From: Polytrichum commune
Taxonomy: Eukaryota > Streptophyta > Polytrichopsida > Polytrichales > Polytrichaceae
NCBI GenBank assembly: GCA_950295325.1
Contig: OX485804.1
Location: 7,750,001 to 7,814,000 of the forward strand
DNA: 64,000 bases
Reading direction: 5' to 3'
The position numbers were made by a program, and so were the translations under genes. Below are positions 6,783 through 64,000 of the stretch, piece after piece (within the stretch, counting starts at the first letter, position 1; each line of letters begins with the position of its first letter). Below the pieces are notes generated by a model that saw nothing but the letters and a program-made list of their open reading frames with translations, searched no databases and was not told the DNA's origin.

Positions 6783-6842
6783 ACGGTTGTGCGTACGGTT
6801 GTGCGTACGGTTGTGCGTACGGTTGTTTGTGCCTACGGTTGG
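6783..6842. repeat. 12-bp tandem repeat (acggttgtgcgt)
   Basis: Three perfect 12-bp units from 6783 to 6818 are followed by two degenerate ones. The paralogous position near 44010-44030 has only a single unit (gtgcctacggttgg), so the array grew after the duplication or was lost in the other copy. Confidence 0.75.
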
Positions 6843-9087: not shown

Positions 9088-9119
9088 GAAACCTATTAGA
9101 CTCAAATTTTATGTACATG

Positions 9120-11240: not shown

Positions 11241-11257
11241 GTAGCATTAAATATACA

Positions 11258-12416: not shown

Positions 12417-12424
12417 TCCAAAAC

Positions 12425-24539: not shown

Positions 24540-25456
24540 TGTGCTTTGAGATGCGCTACAAGTTGTGGTTGAAGACTTTGTCATCTCCTGCAAACCCCGA
24601 TGCCTCAACTCTCCGCGTTCAAGGACGGTACTGAACTGGTCCAGAAGAGGCAAGTGCCGCGTGTCGATGGGCCATTCTTTAGTTAACAAGGCCCACTTTC
24701 AGCACATTTTGGACCTTGGATTCTCCCCCAACTTATTACGCTGATGAATGCCTTCGATGGTGGAGCATCCATCCTCCGGAGAATCTGCTCTTGATTGAAA
24801 AAAAATGAAAAAAAAAAAAACCGTGTGCACGGACGGCACAATACACTACTCGACATGAACTTGGAAGTTGCATGATGTTGGTGCTGCCCACTTGCTACCT
24901 CAATGTTCTGAATATGATATACCGCACACCGTTTATTTTCATTCAGAATCCATGCCGTATTGTAGAGCTTCAGGAACTCCGGTGCGACCATGGTTCTGTT
25001 GACGACGGACAACCTTCCGAATCCGTGGAGTTTAGATGGGACTGGGGATTTCTAGGCGGCCTCGTGCAGTGCCTCGTTGGGAGCGTGTGCCCTTCAACCT
25101 ATTCTATGCGAGAGCTTTTCCGTGGTACATATATTAAAGAGAGAGGAAATTGCAGTGAGCAGTGGGATTGTAAGAATCGGAGAACTTGAGCAAGAAATAG
25201 TTTTAGCTCACTCTTGCCACGATCCATGTATGAAGACCTGCGTACAGCGCAGTTGTAGAGGGAACTGTTGTGCTGGTGGATGCAGAGTGTGCACCCTGTA
25301 AGTTCTTCCTCCAAACTTCGGAGTGGAGAGAGCATGCGTGGGACTCGTAGGAACTAGTCTGGGAAGGGAAACTTTTGGGGCGTCCTCAGAAGTGCACTAG
25401 TTTTGTAGCACACACTAAAATTGGTATAGTTGTTGCAAACCATCGACACAAGAGTA
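24540..25456 (+). promoter_or_regulatory. Upstream region and probable 5' leader of Roco gene 2, conserved in gene 3
   Basis: From about 24550 to the LRR exon the sequence matches 60090-61079 upstream of gene 3, with diverged and deleted patches. The conservation is part of the duplication unit, so it is not by itself proof of function. The core promoter and transcription start cannot be placed. The stretch 25060-25456 is the most similar and probably contains the leader. It holds a short Cys-rich upstream frame at 25230-25301. Antisense and sense frames here are mirrored in gene 3 for the same reason and are not called. Confidence 0.5.
25230..25301 (+). CDS. Putative Cys-rich upstream ORF of Roco gene 2 (23 codons)
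   Basis: An ATG frame of 23 codons ends 155 nt before the main ATG. It contains six cysteines after MKTC (the seventh is in MKTC itself), including an adjacent pair. The gene 3 copy at 60854-60925 has the same length with only two replacements (Ala to Gly, Arg to Gly). An overlapping ATG lies 4 nt upstream in another frame. Whether it is translated is unknown. It could be a regulatory uORF, a small secreted-type peptide, or just a conserved leader. Confidence 0.3.
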   Translation: MKTCVQRSCRGNCCAGGCRVCTL

Positions 25457-26990
25457 ATGATGCAGTGGTGGATTGCTTTCATTTCTCTGTTGGTGAGGGT
25501 TGCGGTTTGGTTGAAGTCGTACTTCCGTTCAATTTTATGGAAGCCCCAACCTCAGGATACCAGCTGTGTGGTTGGGCAGGCGGGCGGCTCAGCACCGCAT
25601 CATGGTGAGGACCAGCTTGTTCAGGGCACGGTGGTTGTGGATGCTTTGGATTCGACATCATGGAGGTCGCATGATACACCGGATTTTGGTCTGGACCCGA
25701 TTCTCTCTGCGATCTCCCCGGATGAGAAACTATGGTTCTCTGTTTCTTGTAAATCTTCGGGCGAAGTTGATGCGCCTAGCCCTCAGGATCCCGATGTATG
25801 GAGGAAGACTATTGTGAAAAGGGTTTCCAAAGATCATAATTTGTGCATCAACATCACCCGACATTCCGGAGCCTCTCAATCCGGGGTCGTCCTCATCTTG
25901 ATGGAAAAATTCTGTGTGGAGGAAGAAATTGCAGTTATGTTCATAGAAGAGTTTGCGAATGCCATACGCTCCAACCCAAGGATTGAAACGGTACTTATTT
26001 GTACTGATTTCTCCGGAGATAATGAAACACTCATAATGAACATGATTGTGGTGACCCTGGAAAACCCTAGCTTGCAAGATGTTGAGCTGTTTCATTGGGG
26101 AGAAGGCTTACTTCCACTCGACCGAGCTGCAATTGAAAGCTTAGTATCCGCTCTCCGAAGGAATTTGACCCTTACCCGTTTTACCATTCGCAACGGAAGG
26201 CGGGGTGTTTTTGACACGGAGGGGCTCAAATTGTTCCTTGAACCCCTCATGATAGGTGGGGAAGGGTCCTACCAAGGTTTAAAAACTCTGCGTCTGGACC
26301 GCACTGGAATCTACGATGAAAGGGCCGAGGTAGTAGCGTCCATGTTGCGGCACAACACTTCCCTTACATGGATAAGTCTCGACAGAAACGAAATCGGGCC
26401 ACAGGGTGCGGCGTACATTGCAGAGGCACTACGCTCCAATACTACGCTTCGACAACTGGACATAGGTCACAACCTAATCGGTGCAGCGGGATTGAAGGCT
26501 CTGGTTGCATCTCTGACCCATAACATGGCCGACGGTGACCTTCAACCCAATTCATCTCTTACACATCTTGATATGCGGGGAGACTTAAGGGTAGAGGACA
26601 TGGAGTTCTTGGAGACCCTCGTACGACAAAATACGTCCTTGGTGAGGTTGGATTTGTCCTACTCAAGCTTATTGCAAGTTGCAGATAACGTGATCCGACT
26701 GCTACAGGCCCTCAAAACCAACAAGTGTTTGCAGGAGGTCATATTATTGGGTTGTGGCGGAGTGGTTGGGCGGAGGGTGTTGGGGACAATATTCGATCTA
26801 CTGGATGTGAATCATCATCTTAAAGAGCTCGATCTGCGGGGTACACCGCTGGCAGAAGATGGAGGGGCGGGGATGGTGGAGGCGGTGCTGGAGCAGAAGG
26901 CCAAGCACAACATGTGGGAGGTGTTGCAGGCCATGGCCACTGCCAAACCCAATTCCGCCAGAATCTTCCTTTGTGGCTACCCCTTTGCAG
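25457..26990 (+). CDS. Roco gene 2, exon 1: N-terminus and LRR domain, first half of P-loop
   Basis: The start is set at the first of two adjacent ATGs (25457, 25460), since upstream in-frame codons lack ATG. The first ~30 residues contain a strongly hydrophobic run (WWIAFISLLVRVAVWL) that could be a membrane anchor or signal-like helix. About residues 190-470 carry ribonuclease-inhibitor-type leucine-rich repeats, for example NTSLTWISLDRNEIGPQGA and NTTLRQLDIGHNLIGAAGL, each with the LxxLxLxxN-type core. The exon ends with GYPFA plus the first base of a Gly codon at the donor gcag^gtgagc (26990/26991). Confidence 0.82.
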
Positions 26991-29900
26991 GTGAGCCCAT
27001 GGACCCAATTTCAGAAAGCAAACTCCTTGTCCTTCTCTTTTCAGGCTAAAAACAACTCTGAGCAACTTTTGTGCTTTATTATTTGTGATTTTGATCCTAT
27101 TTGAGTAGTACACAAGTGTGAGCGGTGCAAGAAAAACCTAGATAAGACATGTGCATATTTGATCTGGCAAGAAATTGATAATAATATTAGCTATATCGAG
27201 ATGAAACATATGGGAGTCTAAAACTCAAAGAAGTCCTCTTAAGATTGTGTTCCTATACTCAAAAAAGGGACAATTTAGAAGATTTTGACCCCACTTCAAC
27301 CCCATACTATTACAAACAACTCTAATATTCGTTCGATGTTGGTCAGATTGTTCATCTTTTAGGTATTTGAAGTAACTTGTTAGGTTTGCTTAATCTATGA
27401 TGTATCATTCTTGCCCCTTAGGGGAAGCTTAAGTACTTTGAAGTAGTTGAATTGGAATGATCTTTAGTACTTACACTAGTACACTTTCAATCACAAATCA
27501 GAGCCTCATGTAGAGTAGTATATGCATATCAACACTACATATAGATTTTTCTAAACAAATGTAATTGACGAAAACTCTCCAATTTGACTGGAATTAATTT
27601 TGAACTTTGAAGTTGAACCTGTGGAAAATGATTAGATGACCATAACCCGCAATAAATGATGGGGAATTGTCCACATGCAAATTGTTTCATGGACAACTCT
27701 CAACCTAGACAAATTGATCATTTTATTTTCTGGTAAAAATAAACCGAACATATTTCAATGGTGTTTCTAAATTACGGGTTCTTCAATGTCAAAGTGTTGC
27801 CATGTCTTTTGGTATCGGAAGTTTGCTTCAAATGTTAGATTCTTTCTCAATTTTTGCAAACCTATATCGAACTTGACCATGTTAGGTTCATGCCATGATA
27901 GTCATGTGTATTTGTGTGATTCTTGAGTAGGCAAGACGACTCTTTCTCAAACCATAACGAAAGCAGTCAAACCCTCGGACCGTAATGCAATGTCTAAGCG
28001 TAGAAAACAATGGACATTTACAAGTTTACTATCAGGCATGCTCCGCAAGGGGGAGTCAAACGATGATCCAAAAGAAATGACACCACGAACACGGGGCATT
28101 GAAGTACATGGTATGTCATTTGATGACACCATGGTCACCATTTGGGATATGGCATGTCAAGATGATTATCATTCTTTCCATGACCTTGTGATTCCAAACC
28201 TTATGGGCAACTCCGGGAGTTCATGTTCTTTTTTACTTGTGTGCAATCCACTCCAACTTGGAACGCGTCGCCTCAAGAATGTCCAAGTAATTGGAGATGA
28301 ATTGTTATATTGGTTGCGGTTCATTGCCTCAAATTCAAGAATATCAACAGCATATAAGCCACATGTGATCATTGTATTGACAAACCTTGACATGGTAGGT
28401 CCCCACTATGAAAGTCTCAATCTACCAAGAATCAAGGATAAGGTTGAATGGCTTAGAAACCTCTTCAAAGATATTCTTGAGATTGATTTACAAGTGTTTG
28501 CAGTCAACGCCTTGTCAATTGACTCCATCAATGTTTTGCTCCAAACAATGAAGGCGCACTTGAAATTCCTATTGGGAACATTGCCACACGTTTTTGAGGC
28601 TTGTTCAAGGATGCAAGTTCTTATTGCCAATTGGAACCGTGAGCACCCCAACCAACCTCTTGTGCGGTGGAACGAGTTTTCTAAGTTGTGTGACAATGTG
28701 GAAGAGTTGAAATCTCTCGAGGGGCTTGGACCGGAGGTTGTGAAAAGGAAAAAAGAAGTTGTGGCAATTTCTTTACACGATAGCGGACACTTGATGTACA
28801 ATGAAGAGCTTGATTTTGTGGTCTTGAACCCTCATTGGTTTTGTCACGATATCATCGGATGTGTGTTGACATGCAAAGGGCTTGATAACTTGGATGGAAT
28901 CACAAATGGTACCATGACCAAAATTGATTTCAAGCATGTTGTGAATGCCTCCCTCCAACCAAACCTACAAGGGTTTAGTTTTGATGATTTGTTGCAAATG
29001 ATGATAAAGTTGGAGTTTTGTTATGAGCATGATGACGATAAGGTGTTGATCCCTGCCTTGCTCAAAGATGACAACGATCAAGCATGCTTGGGGAAACGAC
29101 AATTGCAATGGCCTTCTCAAGAGAAGCATTCAAATTGGCAGTATGTGGGTCGGCGAATATTATGTGACGATAAAGTTCGAACCGTCCTCACTCTTGGGTT
29201 TTTCCCACGATTACAGGTACAAAATTTAACCCATATCAACGGCCAGTGGTGAGCATAAGAACCTTACAATGCATTTATTGGTTACGAACATGTGAGCATC
29301 ACAGTTACGTAAGAAACAAACTATAATTAGTAAATTTCCTTCCTGATATATTTCATGTCATTGGATTTCCCTTTGTTGTACACTATGTAGTCATGACACT
29401 ATGTAGTCATGAAGGAAGCAACGGAAGTGTAATTCTTCGTTGTGATAATTTTTTGTTTTGGGGTTCTTCTCATGTATATAGAGTATATAGAGTATACGAG
29501 ATTGTCATGATGTAAATTATTTTGCGCTCAAGCAAAAAATAGTACTACAAAACAATCTTTTGGAAAGAATTTTAGAACCTTCATTGTTTATCATTTTGTT
29601 AAAAAGTAAAGCATTTCCAAATCAAAGAGAGCGACGTTTAATGAAATTTTCTTTCATCGCAGGTGGTATTTCAAAAGCTTTTTGGAAAAGACAATGGTAA
29701 AAATAGCTACAAGCTCGCCAAGAATGTGATATCATTCTACATGAGCGGGATGGAAGTCATCGTGGAGAGTAGTGGTCAAATCGGTTTTTACATTGATATC
29801 ATGGTGCGCTCTGCAAGGACCGACAAAGATGTTATGTTGGAGTTCTTACATACACATGTTATGAAACATATCTATGACCTTTGTGCTCATCCTGTCTTGG

Positions 29901-31063
29901 GTTGCCAAGGAGTGAAACTTGTTGAGGGAATTTTACGTCCCACATGTGTGGAACATTTGATTCCACGGATCCATAGGGAAGATCAAGTTGTTTTGGTTGA
30001 GGATCTCCAATCTATTGTTTTGGCAACTTGCGATTTTTCTTATGAGCACAATTGGAAAGAAGTTGGTCCGTTGGAAGGAGGTCATGATTATGCACAAACA
30101 TTGTTGGGCAACAAGGCATGGGAGAATATATTAAATAGACATCTCCGAGACTTGCAAAAGCTACAAAAGGTGCTCCCTTGTGATACGAAACATGAAGAGT
30201 TGATGCTTACACAACCACAATGGATGGATGATGGTGATGATGTCATGGATGAAGTGACCAATGCAGATGTGTATAAATTGGTTCAACGATGGGGACGAAG
30301 GGTGTGTTACGACATACAAGAGGGTAATACCAAGGTAATGACGAGGTTGGATGAAATGGAGAAGCGAATAACCATAAAATTGGACCACATCATTTCCATG
30401 GAGAAGGACATGCTACCAAAGATATGTGAGAATATCGACAAGTTGATGACATTCTCGGTGGAATTGCAACAATCTCAAGTGCCACGACTTGTGTACTTCA
30501 CCACAACTCCCAAGAAGAGTTTGAATCGTATTGTGACACGCATGGTGCCTGGCCTTACCAATTTGAAAATGCATTTCATGTGTGAACATCGTGGAGGGTT
30601 TCACATTGTGAATGATCAAAAAGGTTGTGATGTAACATTTGGCACAGAGATAACAAGAGTGTTTCAAATGATTTTGGTGTGGGGATTGAGAATATTCACT
30701 ATATTGGCAAAAGTTGGTGCGCATTTGACGGCCGGTATGGGAACAATGATTCCAGATCTAGCAAAGGATTTCATGTTGGTCGTTGATACGCCAGGCTTAC
30801 TCGATGGTTGGGAATTACCTTATGTTGATGAAACCCTTGACCATGAACTTCAAAGATTGACAATCACGGATGACGATAAACGTAGAGCTGAACAATGGTT
30901 GATCGATTTTTTGAAGGGGAAGAATTTATATGGTTTTTTTTCTTTGCGAAAGGCTATGTACAAAAATAGTATTGGAGGATGTCAGGGAACCATTGCATGG
31001 CTTTGTAGTGACCACATAAAGGAAGGTGAAGATGACTCTTCGGTGGTTTTACTTCCTTGCTAG
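25457..31063 (+). CDS. Complete Roco (LRR-Roc-COR, TORNADO1-like) gene 2, spliced from three exons
   Basis: Exons 25457-26990, 27931-29216 and 29663-31063 total 4,221 nt and join in one frame of 1,406 codons plus stop, close to the length of Arabidopsis TORNADO1. Introns are 940 bp (phase 1) and 446 bp (phase 0), both GT..AG. Joining exon 1 (..GYPFA plus g) to exon 2 (gc plus KTTL) makes the Walker A motif GYPFAGKT, strong proof of the model. Domain order: hydrophobic N-terminus, ribonuclease-inhibitor-type LRRs, Roc, COR. It is the only copy complete in the window. Oddity: G3 reads DMACQ instead of DMAGQ. The gene is open throughout, so it is probably expressed but may be altered in nucleotide handling. 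Confidence 0.82.
27931..29216 (+). CDS. Roco gene 2, exon 2: Roc GTPase
   Basis: The exon starts after tag at 27928-27930 with the second half of the P-loop (KTTLSQT). The residue matching the internal ATG of gene 1 is ACG (Thr) here, confirming that methionine is not an initiator. G3 is DMACQ (GCA TGT CAA, near 28150), where genes 1 and 3 have Gly. G4 is TNLD. The exon ends phase 0 at cag^gtac (29216/29217). It is about 95% identical to gene 1 by eye. The Gly to Cys change is at the residue that contacts the gamma-phosphate in Ras-like GTPases, so this copy may bind or hydrolyse GTP poorly. Confidence 0.83.
29663..31063 (+). CDS. Roco gene 2, exon 3: COR and C-terminus
   Basis: Starts at the acceptor ag (29661-29662) in phase 0 and ends with TAG at 31061-31063. 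Exact same length as gene 1 exon 3, with about 21 replacements, clustered toward the last 60 residues (for example NNIRGCHG against NSIGGCQG). The 3' flank stays homologous to that of gene 1 up to 31241, where an LTR-like element begins. Confidence 0.82.
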   Translation: MVFQKLFGKDNGKNSYKLAKNVISFYMSGMEVIVESSGQIGFYIDIMVRSARTDKDVMLEFLHTHVMKHIYDLCAHPVLGCQGVKLVEGILRPTCVEHLIPRIHREDQVVLVEDLQSIVLATCDFSYEHNWKEVGPLEGGHDYAQTLLGNKAWENILNRHLRDLQKLQKVLPCDTKHEELMLTQPQWMDDGDDVMDEVTNADVYKLVQRWGRRVCYDIQEGNTKVMTRLDEMEKRITIKLDHIISMEKDMLPKICENIDKLMTFSVELQQSQVPRLVYFTTTPKKSLNRIVTRMVPGLTNLKMHFMCEHRGGFHIVNDQKGCDVTFGTEITRVFQMILVWGLRIFTILAKVGAHLTAGMGTMIPDLAKDFMLVVDTPGLLDGWELPYVDETLDHELQRLTITDDDKRRAEQWLIDFLKGKNLYGFFSLRKAMYKNSIGGCQGTIAWLCSDHIKEGEDDSSVVLLPC

Positions 31064-31241
31064 TATACAATTTGAAGACACAAAATTAGTGATTTCCAAA
31101 CCGTGCAAGTGAATCACATATGCACATGTGATCCACCAAGGTTTAGCCCGTGAATGTAGAAATGTTTTGTGCATGACAAATACTCGACAAGCCAAGATAT
31201 GTTCATTTTATTTTAAAGGTCATAACATGCCAATTTGGTTC

Positions 31242-47643: not shown

Positions 47644-47647
47644 ACAC

Positions 47648-48076
47648 TGTCACGTGAGTTGACATCGGGGGCTAAGTCACGTCAAATTAGGAGTAAATGG
47701 ACTCCATTAGGAGTCCATGTGTGTTTGGATGAGTGATGGACTCCATTGGGAGTCCTAGTTAGTTGTTCATCCACTCCATGGATGAAATCCACATGGGATT
47801 GGGGTTATGTGGAGAGGAAGGCATCTTGACTTGCCATTGTTGTCAAGTCAAGTCTTGTGAGTGTGTTTTGAGAGAGAGAGCTTGTTGTTGCTATCTTATG
47901 GCTATGGTGTAGTAGATCATGAGTAAAGCCTTTGCATTCTTTCTCCATCACTTGCACTCTTGGATTCTCCCTTTGTGGAGTGAGAGATAGCTTGACTCTT
48001 GTGTGTGAATTTCAGAGTTTCTTAAGCTTTGTAAGGAGACTTCTTAGTTTCTTGAGCTTTGAGAGAGAAACCCTCA
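47648..48076 (+). repeat. 5' LTR (429-bp shared block)
   Basis: Starts TGTCACGTGAG and ends CCCTCA; identical by eye over 429 bp to 56840-57268. It carries short hairpins (ggactcc..ggagtcc) and a GA tract. The true LTR may extend about 29 bp further to ..TTTTTCA (48105), followed by a weak match to the initiator-Met primer-binding site near 48108-48128. The exact end is uncertain. Confidence 0.8.
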
Positions 48077-49162
48077 TACTTGACAACAATTGCGCTTATT
48101 TTTCATTTTTGGTTGTATTTCTGAGCTAGAAGGGCCCAGTAGTGGGAGCAAATGAGGGATACAAGTGTGTGAAAGCTTAGTTTGCAATTCCTTGCAACCC
48201 TCAAGAAGATTTTGAGAAAAATCTCCACATTTCTCTTTTGGTGTCTCTTTGTGTTTTCTTGAATTGTTGATGGTTGAATCTTGAGACCAAATGGAATCTC
48301 AAGTCACATCTTTCTTGCTTTCAAATTGTGGAAGCAAAGTTTAATTTCTTTAATCAAATCCGATTTATTTTTAATTTTTAATTTTTAGTTCAAATCCGAT
48401 TTGTTTTTTTTATTTTTGTTGAGCTCCGGACGGATCCGGAGCTCACCGGACCCTCCTGGAGCTTCTGGAGCTCCTGGAGCTCCTGCTCTAAAGGCCGGGC
48501 GGGCGGCGCCAGCCTGGCCAAGGCGGGCGGGCGTCAGCCGGGCCGGGGCGGGCAACGTCAGCCAGGCCCCAGGTAAGCCTCTTTACCTTTTTTTTTTTTT
48601 TTTTTTGTTGGTTTTTGTTTTTGTTTTTAAAAAATAAAAACAATATTTTTATTTTCACATTTTTACTTTCACCTTTCAAACTTGGCATTTGACTCTCACA
48701 AACTTTGAGGTTCAAATTTGGGGGCATACTAGCTCCGATTGGAGTGAAATTTGAGCCTATCTTGTGTGAAATTTGCCAAGGAATCCAATGGTGTAATTGG
48801 ATTACTGATTGGAATTCAAAATCATTGCTGAAATTAGCAATTTCAACGCTGATTTTTGTTTTTGGGAGCAAATTAACTCCGAACGGAGTGAAATTTGAGC
48901 CTAATTTGTGTGAAATCTTCCTAGGAGTCCATTGGTGCAATTAGTTTGTTGATTGGAGTCCATAATTACCTTGGAAATTAGCATTTTCAACGCTGATTTT
49001 TTAATTTTAATTACCAATCTCGAAACCTTTGCACAATTTTGGAATTCTGGGGGCATAAATAAACACTTGGCATTTGGCAAGGGATTGCCATTTAGATAGC
49101 CCGCAACAGGTGCAGGTTGCCATTACCTTGTAGATAGTTGCAGGTACTCAAGTGATTATTTT
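48077..49162 (+). other. Retrotransposon untranslated leader
   Basis: Between the LTR and the gag ATG. Contains a strikingly GC-rich patch (about 48418-48575) in an AT-rich leader, ending in CCCCAG^GTAAGC, a good splice-donor consensus. A poly-T tract follows, then two diverged direct repeats of about 140 bp (about 48715-48855 and 48865-49000, sharing gagtgaaatttgagcct). A candidate acceptor (gttgcag) lies just before gag at about 49142, so the leader may be spliced. Confidence 0.55.
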
Positions 49163-50790
49163 ATGGTGCAAACTAGGAGCCGATATTATCGATCTCCATC
49201 ACCATATTACTTGGAGGACGTGCATACCACAAATCTTGAGCCAGAGGTAGATACCAACGAGGCTTTTGAGCCTATTTCGGCGTTGGACACTACTAGTAGG
49301 CTTCGGATTTGGAGTGTCGGCACGTTCGACGAAATGGAGGACGATCACCACAATTCAGTGCGTGATCGGTTTTCAGGTCGAGCTGGGGGCATTTCCTTGC
49401 CCGATTGGAAACTCCGGTTTCGTACCTGGATTAAGGAGAAACGTCAAAGGTCTTCCAATTTCAATGATTGGTATGCCTTTGAACTTCTGCCTCAGCATTT
49501 GGAGTATGAGGCACTCCAAACTTATGAACGCTGGACAGAGGGTCATTAGCGACAACTTCGGGAGGTGGAGCAGTATTGGGAGGCCCGGGTTGAGCTTATT
49601 TCAGCCCTTAAAGATGGGGCGATTGCCACCTTAGCTCCACCCACCTTAAAGGAGGAGGATCCACCGGAGGAGTCTAAGGACCAAGAACTGGCACTTAGGC
49701 CAATAGTGGCTGGCAGTAGCACGGCTACCCTTTCACGGATGGCACGTGCTACACAGGCAGCATTGACGGCTGTTGGTCCACCACCTCCATTTAATCCCCT
49801 TGCTGAATTTGTCACACATTTGGAGGTGGAGTATGGTGGATTTCGGCGAGACCAGATGCAGCGCATTCATGATTTCCGCCGAGAGAAGGATGACACTCCA
49901 CGGACCATGTATACGCGACTCGCACGCTTTGCTGTTGAGTCGGGAGGTGTTTTTGCTGAGAGTCAGCTTGTCAAAATCTTTTTGTCTAAGATTGACAAGC
50001 GGCTACTTGAGTTGGCATCACCTCGGATTATCCTTGACTACGAAGGCAGAGCTACGCTTGCACAAGCGTTTGCCGTGGTTGAGAGATGTGATCGTGCTCT
50101 CTGTCAACACGATGCCACAGACATGGTATCTTGGATGACAGAGAGTACGAAATCAAGAAGAATTGTCATAGCTACTAGTAGTTTAGCTGAGACTCAAACC
50201 GTTAAGGAGCAAAAGATTTTGCATTGTTGGGGTTGTGGAGAAGCTGGTCATTCGAAGAATGATCCCAATTGTCCTAAGAAGAAAAAAACCCAGCCTTTGG
50301 GAAAATTAAAGCAAAAGATAGAACCAGTAAAGGCAGGGGACAATTCTAAGAAGAGACAATTGAAATGTAACCATTGTGGTGGCACTAATCACGATGTGGA
50401 TCATTGTTTCCAAGTTCATCATGAGATGCGGCCTGCCAGTTATGTCACTGGCAAATCTCTAAGGGAGCAGAGTCTTGAGGCTAAGGTGGCAGAGCTTGAG
50501 CAAAAGCTCAAATCTTCTGCATCTTTCGCTCAAATTTCTGAGCCGCATGCAGGTGGTGGCACCTCGGGTGCGGACATGTATATGTTTGGGGCATCTGGAG
50601 AGGTGGTGGCCGCGGCTTCTACTCGATCACAAACATTGGCAAATGCGGTGGCTTCTACAAGTGGTGGTAGCAACGAGGTGTCACATCCTCGCCATGCCGG
50701 ACCAGCGGATCAAGTTGGTCAAGCACGTTTACCTCTCTCATTTGGATTGGTAGACACCACTGTTGTTGGGGCTAAAAGCCCTGTCCCTTT
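49163..50790 (+). pseudogene. gag region with two CCHC zinc knuckles
   Basis: The ATG at 49163 opens MVQTRSRYYRS. A capsid-like region follows, interrupted by TAG at 49547-49549 (the frame continues without shift). Around 50225-50420 there are two knuckles: CWGCGEAGHSKNDPNC (C-x2-C-x4-H-x6-C, slightly long) and CNHCGGTNHDVDHC (canonical C-x2-C-x4-H-x4-C). Basic KKK stretches lie between them. These bind element RNA in virus-like particles. The frame changes near 50788 by one missing base. Confidence 0.75.
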
Positions 50791-51560
50791 GAGAGATGGG
50801 ATTCCATCTCGAAGGATGTTACGCAGGCATTGGCATATAAAATTCTCCATATGCCAATTTTCTCGGGTTCGGAATTGATGGCTCCGGATTTCAAGCTTGC
50901 TGGAGTTTTCCATTTAGCTGGGAGAATGTTAGAAGGTAAGGCGGATTTGCCATCCCTTCAAGTATCCCAAGCTGTTGTTGACGTACCTGTGGCTGAGGAG
51001 GTGGAGGACTTAGCCAATTTGCGAGCGAGCCTTGCGGATGCGGCGATCATTGCTTTTGGTAAGCACACTGACATTCCTCCATCAACAATTTCAGCAATGG
51101 ACACGTCCTTTTCGAATTATGCAGCGGGAGCAGCATATCTTGCAGATATTTCTGCAAGGCCTGCTCGCGAGCGGCATAATTTGCAACCTGGAGTTGTACG
51201 GCTGATGAACGACAAATCTTTGTTTGTCGTTTCACGCACGGATATGCCTACTATTCGTGCTACACCACTGAGAGTTATGATGGATTCCGGTGCTCAACCG
51301 GTTATGATTGGCAAAGGACTTGCTGACAGTCTTGGATTGACGCCAGCAAACTTAGATCCTTGTCCATTCACAATTGTGACTTCAGTAGGGGGCACTGAAC
51401 GTGCAACAGGTTACACCAAGGCACCTCTACGTTTGATTTTTAATGTGGGGGCATGACCTACCTACACTCATTTGTCAATGAAGTGTGTTGTTATTAATGC
51501 TACCAACTATGATATACTTGTTGGTCAGCAAGCTCTTTATCCACTTGGCTTTGGTTTGGA
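50791..51560 (+). pseudogene. Aspartic protease domain
   Basis: Frame 1 opens near 50776 with coding-like WDSISKDVTQALAYK before the ORF's nominal start at 50830. The retropepsin active site reads MMDSGAQPVMIG (DSG at 51283-51291). A TGA at 51454-51456 interrupts the second half of the domain, and the frame resumes to LVGQQALYPLGF near 51510-51545. The family cleaves Gag-Pol. Confidence 0.7.
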
Positions 51561-51939
51561 TAATTGGACTGAAGAAGCATGGATTAGACCGGGATGGTCT
51601 TCTGGAGATGGCAGGAAAGTATTTATTCATGTAGCATTTGCAGCTACTTCTATGACTATGGTTGCGGAGGCAATGTTTGGTTGCAGCGGTTCAGTTGCGG
51701 ATTTGCCTTGTGCTCCAGTTTTGTTGGAGGAAACATTGGACTACGCTTGTAATGCAGCAGAACAACAAATTTTGCCAACTTTACAAATTTCTGCTCGACA
51801 TTTCAAGGATCCACCTCCACCATGGCGTACTCCTAAGGAGTTATCCGACCATTGTCAACACATTGTAGCGGATTTAGGGCTTGGAGAGACACCTCCAACG
51901 TCATCCTCATTTTCTTTTGCTCCACCCATTCGTTGGCAA

Positions 51940-52890
51940 CCACTACCTGAAGGTATTGTCCTTGTAGAAATCTTTGGGGGCATTGGCACAAGTTTGGCGG
52001 CAGTGTTGGAAGCTGGGATTACAATTAGGCGATATATTTATGTGGATAATGGATATGCAGCCAACAGAGCCGTCAGACACCACATTCAACAATTGTTGTT
52101 GAGGTACCCCGCACAATTGTCAGCCACTGCTATTCTTGGATGTTGTAGTCAACTTCCTCAAGATGTCACTATGATTAGTGATGAGGATTTGAGAAGATTG
52201 GGCCACGTGGATTTAATTATTGCAGGATGGCCTTATCAAGGCCATTCACGGGCAGGAACTGGCCAGGGTTTGGATGATCCTAGGTCTAGTTTGTTCGCGG
52301 ATTTGATGCGATTGATACAATGGTGGTTTACCCACCAATCAATTCCGCCAGGGTACATTTTTGAAAATGTGCCATTATTGGGTGATACACGGCACAAATT
52401 GGTGAAGGATGGTGAGTACATTAACCAAATTCTGGGTACTCCAACATTTCTGGATGCTGCATCCTTGGGATCCTTTGTTCATCGGCCTCGTTGGTTTTGG
52501 ACCAATTTGGTAACACCTCAGGTGCTGTCAGCGGCGATCGCCCGCATTGCCCGCCTTATGAATCGCAAGGTGGATGACATTTTAGATGCTCATCGTGTTT
52601 CTTTCGCAGTTACCAAGGATGACAGCTTGCCATTTGCATTAATTAACAAGGTGAGAATTCCGAGAGGTGCACTACCTACTTTTGTGACATATCCACGGTC
52701 TTTTGCATTTCGATCTAGTGGACCAGGCATGGTTTGGAATTCAAATTCCCAAACTCATGATGAGCCTACGGCAGATGAACGAGAACGCGCCATGGGTTTT
52801 CCTACAGGCACCACGGCTGCTCATGGGCTTCAAGAAGGTCAGAGACGTTTCCTATTGGGACAAGCTATGGATCTCAATAGCATGGTGTGA
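51940..52890 (+). pseudogene. DNMT3/DRM-type cytosine-5 DNA methyltransferase domain inside pol
   Basis: About 315 residues in frame with the protease and RT. Motif I is VEIFGGIGTSLAAV (SAM binding, about 51965-52005). The motif IV position reads AGWPYQGHS (52222-52248), with Tyr TAT at 52234-52236 where active enzymes have Pro-Cys. Motif VI is FENVPLLGD (ENV at 52363-52371). Motif VIII-like HRPRWFWTNL aligns with HRARYFWGNL of animal DNMT3A. The final motifs RERAMGFPTGTT and LLGQAM match the DNMT3 GFP and motif X region. The order is not permuted, which fits DNMT3 more than DRM proteins. The domain appears full length, but its catalytic Cys is lost and the reading frame ends at TGA 52888-52890. 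Confidence 0.85.
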
Positions 52891-53271
52891 ATAATTGGAA
52901 TTTGTCTTGCTGCTCAGCAACGTATGGGTGACCAATTGCTTCCTTTGAGGGCAGAGAACAATGGTCCGGGGGCAATGGAGTCGCAATCCAAGGATCACAT
53001 GGAAGTCAATGACACCGAGGCATTATTTTCTTTGAAACAACATGTTGCGGAAGAGATTCGAGCCCAACGTGTTTTTTCGGATTTGGCCCAAGATTTTGGG
53101 AAGTTGGAGGCCCATAAAATGTTTCCACTTCTATTTCTTGGTGACACTTCATATGTGAGTAGCTATTTAGCTACACAAACTGATTGTAGTGGAGAGGATA
53201 CGCATTTGAAATCAAGTGCAGATGATGGGGGCAGAGGTGTTGCCCTCTCTACGGACTAGCAATCACAGGCT
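52891..53271 (+). other. Linker between methyltransferase and reverse transcriptase
   Basis: Frame 1 continues past the TGA at 52888 through an acidic linker (52924-53259) of no recognised family, then a TAG at 53257-53259. Confidence 0.5.
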
Positions 53272-54720
53272 GTGCTGGCACCAAGTGGCAATCCTTCTAT
53301 GACGAAGGAAACCACGGAGTTTGACGATTGGCCAATTGAAGTGGGGCCAAAACTTACTGGTGTCGAAGCACGAAAGGTACGGGCATTTATTCGCTCTTAC
53401 CGTAATTATTTTGCCTTTAGTCTTCATGATCTTGAAGGATACAAAGGTAAACCTGTGCGTATTCAACTCGAGGACGACCATCCTATTTTCAGACGGCCGT
53501 ACAGACTTAGTACATCTGAAAGGTTGGGTGTTCAAACTCGATGTTAAGAATTATTGGCAGCGGAATTGATTGAACTTTCCAATGGAGAGTATACTTGTGC
53601 CACGGTTATGCCTTCAAAGAAAGATATCTTTGGCAACTGGACGGAAAAACGGATGTGAGGTGATTATCGTCCAGTCAACCGCAAGACCAAGTCGGATCGA
53701 TATCCAATGCCGATGCCAGAGGAGTTGTTTGATGCACTGGGATTTGCTAGAATCTTCAGCACTCTGGATTTGAGGTCTGGTTATCATCAATTACCTTTGT
53801 TGTTGGGTGATCGGGTGAAGATCGCATTTTGGGGAGTTGATAAAGATGGCAAGGATCAACTTTATCATTGGAAATTTTTGCCATTTGGTCTCAAAAATGC
53901 ACCAGCTGAATTTCAGCGGGTAATGGACCAATTATTGGCTGGTTTACCGTTTGCTAGATGTTACATTAATGATGTTATCATCTTTAGTAATAGTCCACAT
54001 GATCATGTGAGATATTTGCAAGCGGTATTTGAACGACTACAGCGGTGGGGACTCCGTTTACATCATGGCAAATGTAAGTTTTTCCATGATCAATTGCCCT
54101 ATTTAGGCCACATGATTGTTCCTGGCGGTCTTGGTGTGCAACAGGCGAAGGTGGATGCTTTGCACAAAATTCCCGCACCTAGTGATGTACCACGACTTCG
54201 GGCATTTCTAGGATTGGCAAATTATTATAGAAGGTTTGTCAAAAACTTTAGTTTGATTGCCAAACCTCTCACCATTCTCACGGGGAAAGACCAACCATGG
54301 ATTTGGAGTCGGGAACAACAACATGCATTTGATACATTGAAGCAGAGGCTCGGTTCAACGCCAGTGCTTCGACGCCCGGATGTGTCTAGAGCTTTTCAAT
54401 TGCACACGGATTGGAGTGCAGTGGGATTGGGAGCGGTATTGACACAAAAAGATGAAGAGGGAAAGGAATATGTAGTGGCTTATGCATCTAGAAGCAATAA
54501 TAATGCTGAATCTAATTATTCTTCTTATGAAGGCGAGGCCTTGGCGGCAGTTTGGGCCATTGCACATTTTCGACCTTATTTGTATGGGAAAAAATTTACT
54601 TTGGTGACTGATCATCAACCTTTAAAATGGTTTATAGAATCAGATAAACTCACCGGGAAACTTGCTAGGTGGGCATTGTTACTTCAAGAATATGACTTTG
54701 AAGTTGTTCACCGAGCATGA
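53272..54720 (+). pseudogene. Reverse transcriptase and RNase H domains
   Basis: The RT core starts with RIQLEDDHPIFRRPYRLS. It continues through stops at 53545 (TAA) and 53655 (TGA) to DYRPVNRKTKSDRYPMP, STLDLRSGYHQ and LPFGLKNAPAEFQRVMD. The catalytic box is YIND (53962-53973) instead of YIDD, which removes an essential aspartate. RNase H follows with HTDWSAVGLGAVL, YEGEALAAVW and VTDHQPLKWF, its acidic residues intact. The next stop is TGA at 54718-54720. Domain content and order are those of Ty3/gypsy. Confidence 0.85.
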
Positions 54721-56220
54721 ATTGCCAACTTGGATGTAAACGGATTGTCTCGCAATCCAAGTCCTTCAGATGAGGATTTAAATGGAGCCAGGTGGCATGG
54801 AGATTGTGATCGTGAGGCAGTGCCGGGTTGGCATGCTGCCACATATCTCACAATGATGTCGGGATTGGCTGCTGAGATCCTTGTGAAAGAACAAGATGAG
54901 GAGGTTGATAAATCTCTCGTTGTTAGTGATGTGTGGGAAGACCAGGCGGTTTTGCACAAACTTCAACAAGGGATATTTTCTCTTGGACTATCTGCTATGG
55001 AACGAGATAGAGTTAGCCATCGAATAACAAGGTTCCGTTGGGCGAACGGCTTGTTATTTCGTGTGTGGCCAAACGGAACGAGGCGCATCGTTCCAAGGCC
55101 AGATCAAAGAGCTGCTTTAGTGCGGCAAGTATACGAGGAGCTTGGACATTTTGGAGTGCGAAGGACATACTCTATGTTGCGCAACCAATATTGGTGGACT
55201 GGTATGTATCAACAGGTTGCCACTTATGTTGCTAGGTGTGAAGTATGTGACCGGGTCAGGTCAAGTTTTAATACTTTATCACCTCAACTTCAGCCTTTAC
55301 CTATTATGGGCTTGGGATATCGTTGGTCTTTGGATTTTGCCGGACCGTTTACTATCACTCCACGTGGGGCAAAGTATGTACTTGTGATGGTGGAGCATTT
55401 TAGTAAGTGGATTGAACTCGTGGCTCTCCCCCAAAATTCCTCAGAACTGGCGGCTATAGCATTTCTTGATCGAGTTTTGGCACGGTTTGGAGCACCTGCA
55501 GAGGTGTTGACGGATCAAGGGAGAGAATTTCTTGGATCTTTCGAGGCTTTGTGTACTAAGGCTTTGATTGATCATCGAACAACTTCCCGAGATCACCCTG
55601 AGGCAGATGGGCTTAGCTGAACGAGTTGTTCAGACTGTCAAGCGCGGTTTGCGGAAGTATGGGTTGTTTCATGGCAACCATCGCGATTGGGACTTGATGT
55701 TACCATGGATAGCAATGGGTTACCGCTTCAACAGACAAGCATCTTTGGCATCCTATAGTCCTTACCAACTCTTGTATGGACGGGAACCAATTTTACCTAG
55801 CTCTGTGCGAGAGAAATTGGCTCCTGTAGTAAACTTGGATGATCCAGATGTTTGGGCTCAATGTCTTCATGACCGAGCAAAATTCTTTCAAAAGGCCATG
55901 CCTATGGCCATGGAGAACTTAAATATAGCTCAACATCATGATACATTACGGTATGCCCGGATCCGCAGTGGAGCTTATCGACCTCAGGTTCGTAGATTTT
56001 CCAAGGGGGATTATGTTTACTTGCAACGGGAGGCGCCTACGACATTGGATGTCAAGGCTGGGCGCACAATTTTGCGAGTAAAAGATGTTTTACCAAGTGG
56101 TATATTATTGCTTGAAGGCAAGGATGGACGGGAATGTCATGAGCATTCAAAGAATTGTGCTCCATGTCACCTTCCCATCGACGGCTCTGTGCATCCCGAG
56201 TTGGCGGTTGTACCACAGGG
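54721..56220 (+). pseudogene. Integrase domain
   Basis: An HHCC zinc-binding region around 55120-55260 contains LGHFGVRRTYSMLRNQYWW and CEVC. The catalytic core has LDFAGPF (first Asp, about 55335), LTDQGREF (second Asp, about 55510) and GLAERVVQTVK (Glu, about 55615). An extra base in a G run near 55607 shifts the frame between the second Asp and the Glu (frame 1 to frame 2). The C-terminal DNA-binding part runs to about 56200. The usual chromodomain of plant chromoviruses is not seen. Confidence 0.82.
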
Positions 56221-56404
56221 TCTGCCTTGTTATGTGTGTGGAGAGAAGAAAGGAGCTGCAACAATATTATTGTGCGACCATTGTCAACGTGGATGGCACA
56301 TAGCATGTTTGACACCTCCCCTTTTGACTCTTCCTTCTGGCAATTGGGTTTGTCCTCGTTGTCGGAAAGCCTCCCACTCTATGGCCGTTAATGGTCATGA
56401 TTGA
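56221..56404 (+). pseudogene. C-terminal PHD finger of the pol polyprotein
   Basis: A C4HC3 pattern reads CYVC, then LLCDHCQRGWHIACL, then NWVCPRC (56228-56366); all eight zinc ligands are present. It ends at TGA 56402-56404 shortly after. PHD fingers bind histone H3 tails, so it could target integration to marked chromatin, as chromodomains do in other Ty3/gypsy lineages (inference). Confidence 0.8.
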
Positions 56405-56729
56405 GGACTTTGTGGATATTTGCCACATGTCTTAGTGGTGAAGTTGTTATCTAGTTGGTCGGAAGTTTTATGGGATTGAAAATCACATTGGGAGAATTAT
56501 CAAAGAATTCAACATAAATTGTTGAAGGCGATTAAGGATGAGGCTCACATTGCACCCAGCCTACAGTTCTTGGGTTACTTCTTCAACCATGAATTTAATT
56601 CCTTAAATTACCATTACCCAATTGGATATGTACAGATGTAGCAACAACTTCATCATGTTCAACATCTCTACCGATGAGTGTGTTTGTTCCTAGCTGATTG
56701 GAGGGGCTCCTTATCTGCTAGGGGGGGCA
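56405..56729 (+). other. 3' untranslated region and G-rich (polypurine-like) tract
   Basis: Non-coding. The run ctagggggggcac at 56717-56730 is the best polypurine-tract candidate, but it abuts the 108-bp block at 56730 rather than the 429-bp LTR block. Confidence 0.5.
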
Positions 56730-56837
56730 CTTGAAGAGGTGGTTGTTTAGCATATTAGTTTGCTATGTTTATTTTGCTAATTGATGTTGATGACGACACT
56801 CGATCTGTTGTATTTAACGATCTTAGTTTACACGACA
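56730..56837 (+). repeat. 108-bp block A, duplicated at 57270-57377
   Basis: Starts cttgaagaggtgg, ends tttacacgaca. It lies between the polypurine-like tract and the 3' LTR block and is separated from TGTCACG by gc. One mismatch to the second copy was noted. Confidence 0.85.
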
Positions 56838-56839
56838 GC

Positions 56840-57268
56840 TGTCACGTGAGTTGACATCGGGGGCTAAGTCACGTCAAATTAGGAGTAAATGGACTCCATT
56901 AGGAGTCCATGTGTGTTTGGATGAGTGATGGACTCCATTGGGAGTCCTAGTTAGTTGTTCATCCACTCCATGGATGAAATCCACATGGGATTGGGGTTAT
57001 GTGGAGAGGAAGGCATCTTGACTTGCCATTGTTGTCAAGTCAAGTCTTGTGAGTGTGTTTTGAGAGAGAGAGCTTGTTGTTGCTATCTTATGGCTATGGT
57101 GTAGTAGATCATGAGTAAAGCCTTTGCATTCTTTCTCCATCACTTGCACTCTTGGATTCTCCCTTTGTGGAGTGAGAGATAGCTTGACTCTTGTGTGTGA
57201 ATTTCAGAGTTTCTTAAGCTTTGTAAGGAGACTTCTTAGTTTCTTGAGCTTTGAGAGAGAAACCCTCA
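56840..57268 (+). repeat. 3' LTR (429-bp shared block)
   Basis: Identical by eye to 47648-48076. It is followed not by host DNA but by a second copy of block A. Confidence 0.85.
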
Positions 57269-57269
57269 T

Positions 57270-57377
57270 CTTGAAGAGGTGGTTGTTTAGCATATTAGTT
57301 TGCTATGTTTATTTTGCTAATTGATGTTGATGACGACACTCGATCTGTTGTGTTTAACGATCTTAGTTTACACGACA
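57270..57377 (+). repeat. 108-bp block A', right end of the element
   Basis: Near-perfect copy of 56730-56837. It is followed by acac and then by DNA resembling the host repeat (cagacaattt..), so this is the boundary of the element. Confidence 0.8.
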
Positions 57378-57381
57378 ACAC

Positions 57382-60070: not shown

Positions 60071-61079
60071 GTATGGGAAGGTTTAACGTCTACAAGTTGT
60101 GGTTGAAGACCTTGTCATTTCCTACAATCCCGAATACCTCAACTCTCCACATTCACGAACCTTAACTGGTGCAAAAGAGGCCGCAACTGCCTCATGTAGA
60201 AGGGCAATTCTTTTGTTGACAGGGCCCACTTTGAGCACATTTAGGATCTTGGAATTCTCCCCCAGGAAATAATTACAGCCAGGCTTCTGTGCATTTGCCC
60301 CCTTACAGACATTTCTGAACGCGGCAAACATGATTCCAGCGATGCTCAAGAATGCTGTGGTGGAGCATCCACCCTCCAGAGAATCTGCTCTTCATTGAAA
60401 AAAATAACAAGCAATAAAATCATGTGCACAGACGCCACAACACACTACTCGACATGAACTTGGAAGTTGCATCATGTTGGTGCTGCCCACTTGCTACCTC
60501 AATGTTCTGAAAATGATTTAAAGCACATCGTTTCTGTTCATTGAAATTCCAAGTCATATTGTGGAGCTTCAGGAACTCCGGTGCAACCATGGTTCTGTTG
60601 ACGACGGACAACCTTCCGAATCTGTGGAGTTTAGACGGGACTGGGGATTTCTAGGCGGCCTCGTGCAGTGCCTCGTTGGGAGCGTGTGCCCTTCAACCTA
60701 TTCTATGCTCGCACTTCTTCTTCCCGGCTCGGAGAGAGCTCTTCTGTGGTACATATATCACAGAGAGGGGAAATTGCACTGAGCAGTGGGATTGTAAGAA
60801 TAGGAGGGCTTGAGCGAGAAATAGTTTTAGCTCACTCTTGCCATGATCCATATATGAAGACTTGCGTACAGCGCAGTTGTAGAGGGAACTGTTGTGGTGG
60901 TGGATGCGGAGTGTGCACCCTGTAATTTCTCCTCCAAACTTCGGAGTGGAGAGAACATGCCTGTGACTCGTAGGAACTAGCCTGCGTAGGGAAACTTTTG
61001 GTGCGTCCTCAGAAGTGCACTAGTTTTGTAGCACACACTAATATTGTTATCGTTGTTGCAAACCACCGACACAAGAGTC
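60071..61079 (+). promoter_or_regulatory. Upstream region and probable 5' leader of Roco gene 3
   Basis: Copy of 24540-25456 with local insertions, for example sequence at about 60265-60350 and 60708-60735 not seen in gene 2. The promoter cannot be placed. Holds the second copy of the Cys-rich upstream frame. Confidence 0.5.
60854..60925 (+). CDS. Putative Cys-rich upstream ORF of Roco gene 3 (23 codons)
   Basis: Same length as the gene 2 frame, with all seven cysteines kept. It ends 154 nt before the main ATG. It differs at two residues. Confidence 0.3.
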   Translation: MKTCVQRSCRGNCCGGGCGVCTL

Positions 61080-62640
61080 ATGATGCAGTTGTGGATTGGT
61101 TTCATTTCTCTGTTGGTGAGAGTTGCGGTTTGGTTGAAGTCGCACTTCCGATCAATTTTGTGGAAGCCCCAACCTGTGGGGACCAGATGTATGCTTGCAC
61201 AGGTGGGCAGATCAGCACCGCATCATGGTGAGGACCAACTTGTTCAGGGCACGGTGGTTGTGGATGCTTTGGATTCGACATCATTGAGGTTACATGATGC
61301 ACCGGATTTTGGTCTGGAGCCGATTCTCTCTGCGATCTCCTCGGATGAGGAACTGTTGTTCCAGGTTTCTTATAAATCTTCCGGCGAAGTTGATGCGTCT
61401 AGCCCTGAGGATCCCGATGTGTGGAGGAAGACTATTGTGAAAAGAGTTTCCAATGATCGGAATTTGTGCATCAACATTTTCCGACATTGCAAAGCCTCTG
61501 AATCCATGGTCTCCCTCTGGTTCAGCGGAAATTTCGTTGTGGAGGAAAAAGTTTCAGTTATGTTCATGGAAGAGTTTACGAATGCCATGCGCTTGAACCG
61601 AAGGATTGAAAAGGTATCTATTGAAACTACTTTCTCCGGAGATACAGATAGGGCACTCGTAACATGCTTCAGAACACTTGTAGTGAACATGTTTCAAGTG
61701 ATGCTGGAGAGCCCGAGCATGCGACATGTTTCCCTGAGTAATTATGAATATTGCGCACTTCCACTGGACCGAGCTGCAATTGAAAGCTTAGTATCCGCTC
61801 TCCGAAGGAATTTGACCCTTACCCGTTTTGAGATTGACAACGGAGGGGGGGTTTTTTTTGACACGGAGGGGCTTAGAATGTTCCTTAAACCCCTCATGAT
61901 AGGTGGGGAAGGGTCCTACCAAGGTTTAAAAACTCTGCGTCTGGACGGCACAGGAATCAACGATGAAAGGGCAGAGGTAGTTGCGTCCATGTTGCGGCAC
62001 AACACTTCCCTTACATGCATAAGTCTCCAACAAAACCAAATCGGTCCACAAGGTGCGGCGCGCATTGCAGAGGCACTACGTTCCAATACTACGCTTCGAA
62101 AACTGGACATAAGTCACAACCGCCGCATCGGTACAGCAGGATTGAAGGCACTGGTTGCATCTCTGACACACAACATGGCCGACGGTGACCTTCAACCCAA
62201 TTCATCTCTTACACATCTTGATATGCGGGGAGACTTAAGGGTAGAGGACATGGAGTTCTTGGAGACCCTCGTACGACAAAATACGTCTTTGGTGAGGTTG
62301 AATTTGTGCAGGTCAAGCTTATTGGAAGTTGCAACTAACGTGATCCGACTGCTAGAGGCCCTCAAAACCAACAAGTGCTTGGAGGAGGTCATTGTATGGA
62401 ATTGTGGCGGAGTGGTTGGGCGGAGGGTGTTGGGGACAATATTCGATCTACTGGAAGTGAATCATCATCTTAAAGTGCTCGATTTGTGGGGTACACCTCT
62501 GGAAGCAGATGGAAGGGCGGGGATGGTGAAGGCGGTGCTGGAGCAAAAGGCCAAGCACAACATGTGGGAGGTGTTGCAGGCCATGGCCACTGCCAGACCC
62601 AATTCCGCCAGAATCTTCCTCTGTGGCTACCCCTTGGCAG
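61080..62640 (+). CDS. Roco gene 3, exon 1: N-terminus and LRR domain
   Basis: The start is placed at the first of two adjacent ATGs (61080), aligned with gene 2. The exon is 27 nt longer than that of gene 2. The N-terminal hydrophobic run is kept (FISLLVRVAVWLKS). The region before the LRRs (about residues 130-220) has diverged most from gene 2, while the repeats from NTSLTCISLQQNQIGPQGA onward are nearly the same. It ends with GYPLA plus the first base of Gly at gcag^gtgagc (62640/62641). The P-loop therefore reads GYPLAGKT after splicing. Confidence 0.82.
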
Positions 62641-63583
62641 GTGAGCCCATGGACCCAATTTCAGAAAGCAAAACTCTTTCTGCTCCTATTTCTAGGCTAA
62701 AAACAACTCTGAACAACTTTTGTGCTTTATTATTTGTGAGTTCGATTCTATTTGAGTAGTACACAAGTGTGAGCTACGCAAGAAGGGCCTAGATAAGACA
62801 CGTGCATATTTGATTCGGCAAAATATTGATAATAATATTAGCTATATCGAGATGAAACATATGGGCGTCTAAAACTCAAAGAAGTCCTCTTAAGATTGTG
62901 TTCCTATACTCAAAAAAGGGACAAATTAGAAGATTTTGACCCCACTTCAACCCCATACTATTACAAACAACTCTAATATTCGTTCGATGTTGGTTTGATT
63001 GTTCATCTTTTAGGTATTTGAAGTAACTTGTTAGGTTTGGTTAATCTATGATGTATCATTCTTGCCACTTAAGGGAAACTTAAGTACTTTGGAGTAGTTG
63101 AATTGGAATGATCTTTAGTACTTACACTAGTACACTTTCAATCACAAATCGAAGCCCCATGTAGAGTAATATATGCATATCAACACTACATATGGATTTT
63201 ACCAAACAAATATAATCCATGATAGCTCTTTAATTTGACTCAATTTTCTTCTGAACTTTGAAGTTGAACCTGTGGAAAATGGTTACATGACCATAACTCG
63301 GAAAAAAATGGTGGGGAATTGTCCACATGGCAAATTGTTTCATGAAAAATTGTCAACCTAGAGAAATTGATCATTTCATTTTTTGGTAGAAATAAACCAA
63401 ACACATTTCAATGGTATATGTAAATTACGGGTTCTTCAATGTCAAAGTGTTGACATGTCTTTTGGTATCATAAGTTTGCTTCAAACGTTAGATTTTTCTC
63501 AATAATTGCAAACTTATATCGAAGTTGAGCATGTGAGGTTCATGCCATGATAGTCATGTGTAATTTGTATGATTTTTGAGCAG

Positions 63584-64000
63584 GCAAGACAACTCTTTGT
63601 CAAACTATAATGAAAGCAATCAAACCCTTGGACCGTAATGGACTGTCTAAATGGAAAAAACAATGGACATTTATAAATTTGCTACCAAGCATGTTCCGCA
63701 AAGGCAAATCAAATGATGATCCAAGAGAAGTGACACCACGAACGAGGGGCATTGAAGTACATGGTATGTCATTTGATGACATCATGGTCACCATGTGGGA
63801 TATGGCAGGTCATGATGATTATCATTCTTTCCATGACCTTGTGATTCCAAATCTTACGGGAAACTCCGGGAGTTCATGTTCGTTTTTACTTGTTTGCAAT
63901 CCACTCCAACGTGGAACGCGTGACCTCAAGAGTGTCAAAGTAATTCGAAATGAATTGTTGTATTGGTTGCGGTTCATTGCCTCAAATTCAAGAATATCAA
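63584..64000 (+). CDS. Roco gene 3, exon 2: Roc GTPase (cut by the right edge)
   Basis: Follows a 943-bp phase-1 intron (62641-63583; acceptor cag 63581-63583). Open to the end of the window. G3 reads DMAGHDD, with His where gene 1 has Gln. More diverged from genes 1 and 2 than they are from each other. The COR exon lies beyond 64000. Confidence 0.8.

Follow-up and report, generated by a model that had tools for sequence, protein, structure and literature searches.

In this work, we analyzed a window of 64,000 nt (the whole stretch of DNA under study) and found in it, at positions 47,648-57,377, a Ty3/gypsy element that carries a DNMT3-type C5 cytosine methyltransferase domain between its protease and its reverse transcriptase (RT). 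Taken together, the results make it reasonably probable that this copy represents a streptophyte Ty3/gypsy family in which (i) the methyltransferase is kept by selection, (ii) the two open reading frames (ORFs) are joined by read-through, (iii) the enzyme putatively methylates the cDNA or the new copy of the element itself, and (iv) a PHD finger would steer the integrase. Of the anatomy of the family, as described below, we are almost sure; the putative self-methylation of cDNA or new copies is a more tentative component, to which we would give slightly less than an even chance.

Identity of the methyltransferase domain

The domain occupies positions 51,940-52,940 of the plus strand and was detected by Pfam as DNA_methylase (E 1.3e-9, 38.4 bits, cut-off 22) in an open stretch at 51,457-52,887. 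It is unpermuted and is broken in the window copy, where a stop at 52,888 interrupts motif X, so that the domain extends slightly beyond position 52,890, at which a previous sequence-only reading had ended it. That reading had proposed a C5 methyltransferase domain lying between protease and RT in a common frame, with motifs I, IV, VI, VIII and X in canonical order. We read the motifs in this same order, and the Pfam hits are consecutive in frame 1 of the plus strand, with the protease followed by the methyltransferase and then by RT/RNase H (E 1e-26 to 8e-40).

The proposed likeness to DNMT3 is supported by sequence, by fold and, weakly, by phylogeny. The ranking of the window domain against PDB sequences placed DNMT3A first (27.3 bits), ahead of M.HaeIII (19.7), M.HhaI (16.6) and DRM (15.7). 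An AlphaFold model of the window domain made from one sequence (pLDDT 36.7) was excluded from the fold comparison, for which we used a model of the domain of a relative, lineage X (see below), made from 22 sequences with a pLDDT of 64.7 (residues 205-267 being weak); the best 50 of the 154 entries with E ≤ 0.001 all belonged to the DNMT3 family. The phylogenetic tree comprised 41 rows: ten retroelement domains, DNMT1, DNMT2, DNMT3A, DNMT3B, M.HhaI, a DRM fragment, 14 of 80 viral loci and 11 bacterial loci (12 picked from 57, one of which was too short and was removed), the viral and bacterial rows having been drawn by a profile that included DNMT3 and thus being no even sample. The ten retroelement rows form a single group (100/100), and the domain, which might have fallen outside the C5 methyltransferases, is placed inside them. 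In the best tree, the retroelement domains join DNMT3A/B at 63/84 only, on a long stem (2.3). Approximately unbiased (AU) tests rejected their placement as sister to M.HhaI (p 0.004), DNMT1 (p 0.005) or DNMT2 (p 0.009), and did not reject the placement as sister to the host DRM fragment (p 0.18).

Human DNMT3A and DNMT3B resemble the element domain in catalytic motifs and fold, but share only 26-28% identity with it, and the element domain forms part of a retroelement polyprotein. Plant DRM enzymes differ from it in their permuted motifs (VI-X before I-V), the order also observed in a host DRM exon of the same genome (E 5.9e-52 to DRM2). The presence of this exon supports describing the element as a plant one, at the level of streptophytes. 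Three scans of viral contigs revealed no near retroelement methyltransferase.

Extent of the family and selection on the domain

We searched the genome from which the window comes (407.8 Mb, 64 contigs, seven of them large). In the domain search, the best 124 of 572 first-look candidates were scored, and besides the window copy they comprised 123 loci at 85-91% identity; no stop was present inside the domain in 71 of the 124, and 15 of them had a stop-free frame of 1,386 aa. A Pfam search, in which the best 123 of 352 were scored, added 76 loci and brought the union to 200. Six of the added loci were read; five belong to a second lineage (II) and one is the host DRM exon. Up to 199 methyltransferase loci are therefore listed, this being an upper figure for those listed since 70 were counted by the Pfam search alone, and the total in the genome may be higher than the number listed, only the best candidates having been scored.

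Lineage II is 62-65% identical to the window domain, and all five members read are open and keep PCQ, ENV and HRPRWIWTN. Lineage X corresponds to contig CADCWO010000201.1 (L170), positions 1-9,285, binned as a Synechococcales cyanobacterium and 67% identical over 320 aa. It is a near-complete retroelement with one gag-protease-methyltransferase frame and one RT-integrase frame, whose ends overlap by 127 nt, resembling a collapsed repeat. The remaining 57 loci of the scan that found it were far weaker (E 5e-11 or worse), and X is probably a eukaryotic contaminant of the cyanobacterial bin. Judged from these sequences, the family is large and partly intact, with at least two deep lineages in the genome of the window and a third one elsewhere.

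These figures bear on the most trivial explanation, namely that a methyltransferase gene had by chance inserted into one decayed element. The state of the window copy, which is dead (see below), would be in its favor, but the domain occupies the same position in further copies, with up to 199 loci that comprise two deep lineages in this genome, and again in lineage X; we consider this explanation practically negligible. The PCQG catalytic box is present in 26 of 30 loci, the other four being the window copy, one locus that keeps the C but has a stop, and two unmatched to the pattern.

Within the genome, dN/dS was determined with 16 of the 30 loci, chosen for few stops, and amounted to 0.40 for the domain, 0.24 for RT, 0.46 for gag-protease and 0.93 for the tail between the domain and RT. 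Between lineages I and X, dN was 0.205 for the domain, 0.079 for RT, 0.41 for gag-protease and 0.56 for the tail, and between lineages I and II it was 0.27 for the domain, with synonymous sites near saturation in both comparisons (pS 0.74-0.77, and 0.74 for I and II). By these substitution rates, the domain is under purifying selection, looser than that on RT and tighter than that on gag or on the tail.

Coding regions and state of the window copy

All coding features lie on the plus strand. The gag region (49,100-50,875) was delimited by open stretches and by CCHC-type knuckles identified by eye; it is broken by a stop in the window copy and shares the protease-methyltransferase frame in the X copy. 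The aspartic protease at 51,262-51,405 (Pfam Asp_protease_2, E 7.9e-5) scored 23.7 bits, just below the cut-off of 24.3. Beyond the methyltransferase follow RT and RNase H (53,659-54,717; Pfam, Ty3 RT E 3.9e-69), an integrase with an H2C2 zinc domain and a DDE core (54,721-56,227; Pfam Integrase_H2C2 1.5e-17, rve 5.3e-15), with a frame break near 55,568-55,617 in the window copy, and, at the end of the integrase, a C4HC3 PHD finger (56,228-56,362; Pfam PHD 1.9e-10). The Ty3/gypsy domain order, protease-RT-RNase H-integrase, is thus present. The chromodomain that marks chromoviruses was absent from 55,568-56,401, where the PHD finger is found instead, and the tyrosine recombinase of DIRS elements was absent from the nine open stretches scanned, a DDE integrase being present. 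The scan of the window against Rfam gave no match.

The window copy itself is, from its coding sequence, dead in both the enzyme motif and RT, with PYQ at motif IV and YIND at the RT box. In addition, its gag-pol contains six in-frame stops and two frame breaks, besides one seemingly natural stop (UAG). As regards its age, the two copies of terminal repeat A are identical (430/430) and those of repeat B nearly so (107/108), so that about 7 substitutions, and at most about 38, are expected in 7.3 kb. Such a number is small for a copy that bears six stops and two frame breaks and has lost two motifs, so most of the lesions are probably older than the insertion. Barring homogenisation of its repeats, the window copy may thus stem from copying in trans, and, since a dead copy still seems recently inserted, the enzyme need not act in cis.

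Split terminal repeats and priming

The repeats are arranged in the order A-coding-B-A-B, all on the plus strand. The first A (47,648-48,077) starts with TGTC; a polypurine-tract-like stretch (56,717-56,729), read from the sequence and similar in the other copies examined and in X, precedes the first B (56,730-56,837), which is followed by the dinucleotide GC (56,838-56,839), the second A (56,840-57,269) and the second B (57,270-57,377), ending in GACA. The dinucleotide forms with its neighbours the palindrome GACAGCTGTC. Read with these repeats, a 4-bp target-site duplication, ACAC, flanks the element at 47,644-47,647 and 57,378-57,381. The pair of full-length terminal repeats of Ty3/gypsy elements is not found here, the repeats being split, and the element is placed in this group by its enzymes only.

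The right-hand B-A-B arrangement was observed in 23 of 29 copies; one of the others ends in B-A, three have only B and two show no repeat in the piece fetched. Of the 23 full copies, 20 have GACA-GC-TGTC at the inner junction, while two have GT and one has AC in place of GC; the GC junction recurs in one 3' end each of lineages II and X. Among the 29 copies examined, 24 were scorable for target duplications, which were exact in 22 and matched at three of the four letters in the other two. Re-insertion of a single aberrant circle was rejected as the source of the odd repeats, given that 23 of 29 copies show them. Random opening of a 2-LTR circle was likewise discarded: it should yield left A-B-A and right B-A-B ends with equal frequency, and A-B-A was seen in none of the 27 copies that gave a hit to A on the left. 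Three insertions (L175/L176, L195/L196 and L220/L221) consist of A-coding-B only and have exact 4-bp duplications; recombination between the two Bs, or another intermediate, are candidate origins for them.

Immediately after the first A, a presumed primer-binding site (48,078-48,090, plus strand) has an exact 13-nt complement in the element's own A, at 47,836-47,848 of the same strand (offset 188 in A), where we presume the 5' end region of the RNA to lie. In each of lineages I, X and II, the 13-15 nt after the first A are complementary to a site in the respective A, with letters that differ between the lineages; four tests were made, and in each of them none of 500 shuffles reached this complementarity. 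The 3' A repeat of lineage II allowed the letters at its left ends to be predicted, and both left ends, fetched for this test, fitted. With respect to a tRNA-type primer site, TGG occurred within 20 nt after the left repeat in four of 25 copies and never at the start. The compensatory changes in three lineages thus point to self-priming, with an RNA 5' end that would map to the complementary region of A. Self-priming is the mode of LTR elements of the Tf1 type. Like those elements, the window family has a stretch after its left repeat that would pair with its own RNA near the expected 5' end, whereas its split repeats, methyltransferase and PHD finger set it apart.

A conserved UAG between the methyltransferase and RT

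Between the methyltransferase tail and RT, at 53,257-53,265 of the plus strand, the element has the sequence TAG CAA TCA, a presumed read-through UAG in a CARYYA context. This motif was found in 29 of the 30 own loci and in X. It lies in the frame of the domain in 28 of the 30 (it is shifted in L150, and L151 lacks it), and in eight of the 30 the UAG is the sole stop across 3.96 kb. Lineage II has TAG-CAA-TTA in both stretches available, with other letters that yet fit UAG-CARYYA, which we take to be the read-through context of the tobacco mosaic virus type. A stem-loop follows 3' of the UAG (53,272-53,371, plus strand), and its folding beat that of shuffled sequences in four of four sequences (z -2.8 to -4.0). 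Over seven sequences, 95.5% of the cells pair, compared with 41-58% when the partners are slid, and the cell count and score were reached by two of 500 shuffles. Two pairs have changed on both sides, a count that 329 of 500 shuffles also reached, and the number of pair types was reached by all 500; the covariation support is thus modest.

These data suggest UAG read-through between ORF1 (Gag-protease-methyltransferase) and the RT-integrase region. If read-through holds, the methyltransferase would be a Gag-side product, because the domain precedes the conserved UAG. Because two open stretches overlap, we also considered a -1 frameshift from gag to protease; it was dismissed, since X reads gag, protease and methyltransferase in one frame and there are own copies with 1,386-aa frames. 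The description of the domain as built into the pol gene consequently needs amendment: the protease-methyltransferase-RT frame is as had been read, but a conserved stop leaves the domain on the side of Gag and protease, and it is expected to be made with Gag, not only with Pol. Many relatives are open, and in the family the UAG splits RT-integrase off from the ORF that holds Gag, protease and methyltransferase.

Possible functions of the methyltransferase

In the scheme that we favor, ORF1 would give rise to a Gag-protease-methyltransferase product, to which occasional read-through of the UAG, aided by the CARYYA context and the stem-loop, would add RT-RNase H-integrase-PHD. Because it is encoded in ORF1 with Gag, the methyltransferase would be present in particles at about Gag amounts, beside the nascent cDNA, and its most likely substrate would be the double-stranded cDNA of the element itself, or else the new copy right after integration. 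A copy methylated in this way might pass as host DNA or set its own silencing, and the PHD finger would steer the integrase to chosen chromatin; both the packaging of the enzyme and the PHD targeting are steps that we infer. Two retroelement DNMT3s from Symbiodinium produced CG methylation in yeast (de Mendoza et al. 2018, PMC5890265), while the KnitGypsy-Dnmt3 domain of Klebsormidium nitens gave no methylation there, a result that the text of that report presents as inconclusive. A CpG footprint of self-methylation was not detected in the coding parts, where the observed/expected ratio is 0.61-0.75, compared with a window average of 0.57.

Alternatively, the enzyme could act on host chromatin and, together with the integrase-PHD, methylate the surroundings of the target site or other regions, thereby hiding the insertion or disturbing host silencing. 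The PHD finger is conserved: of 28 other right-hand pieces, 24 keep it at the integrase end (three of the 24 with internal stops), as do X and, with Tyr at the zinc His, one piece of lineage II. Among solved structures, it is closest to chromatin readers such as CHD4, PHF12 and PHF21A. However, the UAG separates the methyltransferase from the PHD finger, so that most of the methyltransferase would be made without it, and we regard an action on host chromatin as rather unlikely. Less likely still is that the domain has a structural or nucleic-acid-binding function in Gag-Pol particles, or methylates the RNA of the element, DNA methylation being incidental. Its placement with Gag would suit such a function, and RNA methylation is raised for LINE-type elements in the text of PMC5890265, but the conservation of the PCQG box, in 26 of the 30 loci, and a kinship with DNMT3 instead of the tRNA enzyme DNMT2 (the AU rejection given above) argue against it. 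Methylation of the element's own DNA is our preferred, if tentative, reading.

Relationship to described elements

Retrotransposons with C5 methyltransferases had been mentioned in the sequence-only reading as reported from dinoflagellates and charophyte algae. Such elements are described from dinoflagellates and one charophyte in PMC5890265, and the likeness extends to the odd A-coding-B-A-B repeats. KnitGypsy-Dnmt3 is described there as a Ty3/gypsy element with an unpermuted, intronless DNMT3 domain in its polyprotein, under purifying selection, and with terminal repeats "the same as that of a DIRS retrotransposon". By this published description, it has the same enzymes and the same repeat order as the window family, which differs in being from another genome and in having far more loci. 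The PHD finger, the UAG read-through, the self-complementary primer site and the 4-bp duplications are found in the window family; the term "PHD" is absent from the main text of PMC5890265, and the other three features were not seen in the text consulted, though KnitGypsy-Dnmt3 may have them. On the basis of the shared enzymes and repeat order, we file the window family as a member of the kind published as KnitGypsy-Dnmt3. SymbioDIRS-Dnmt3 and SymbioLINE-Dnmt, as presented in the same source, are also retroelements with C5 methyltransferases, and the former, from Symbiodinium, has A-coding-B-A-B repeats too, but they possess a tyrosine recombinase and an endonuclease, respectively, whereas the window family has a DDE integrase.

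A literature search covering few subscription papers found no description of a methyltransferase-bearing element of this kind that has read-through, a PHD finger or self-priming, nor of any from a land plant. In the text of a 2019 paper, land plants such as tracheophytes are given as being without transposon-borne DNA methylases (PMC6338049), and that of a 2025 paper refers to reports, from streptophytes and dinoflagellates, of Copia and DIRS retrotransposons with DNMT3 (PMC12344493); the 2018 text gives Gypsy for K. nitens (PMC5890265). A land-plant host, if true, would change the known distribution of transposon-borne methyltransferases. The many loci and open copies in a DRM-bearing genome make it testable whether a transposon methylates its own cDNA, and to what gain. 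Experimental handles are offered by its read-through signal, its PHD finger and its self-priming design with split repeats.

It is tempting to speculate, as a possibility that we rate at roughly one in three, that an ancient streptophyte lineage common to Klebsormidium and this genome has a mode of replication distinct from those of ordinary LTR and of DIRS elements and combines self-priming, ends restored from the internal B-A junction, DDE integration at the palindrome, a DNMT3 "writer" kept at Gag level through read-through and a PHD "reader" on the integrase, in such a way that each new cDNA would undergo methylation inside the particle before being brought to chosen chromatin.

Other features of the window

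Within the element, repeat A (47,648-48,079) and the 3' untranslated part (56,403-56,732) are CpG-poor, with values of 0.16 and 0.23, and the leader and coding parts have values of 0.60-0.75. Outside it, the stretches 1-3,678, 25,430-31,241 and 60,358-64,000 are repeated (95.7% and 88.5% identical) and contain leucine-rich-repeat, Roc and COR-A domains; by their domain content, they are ROCO-like genes or pseudogenes clustered locally. A direct repeat of 0.9 kb, 93.5% identical, is located at 10,358-11,259 and 12,417-13,317.
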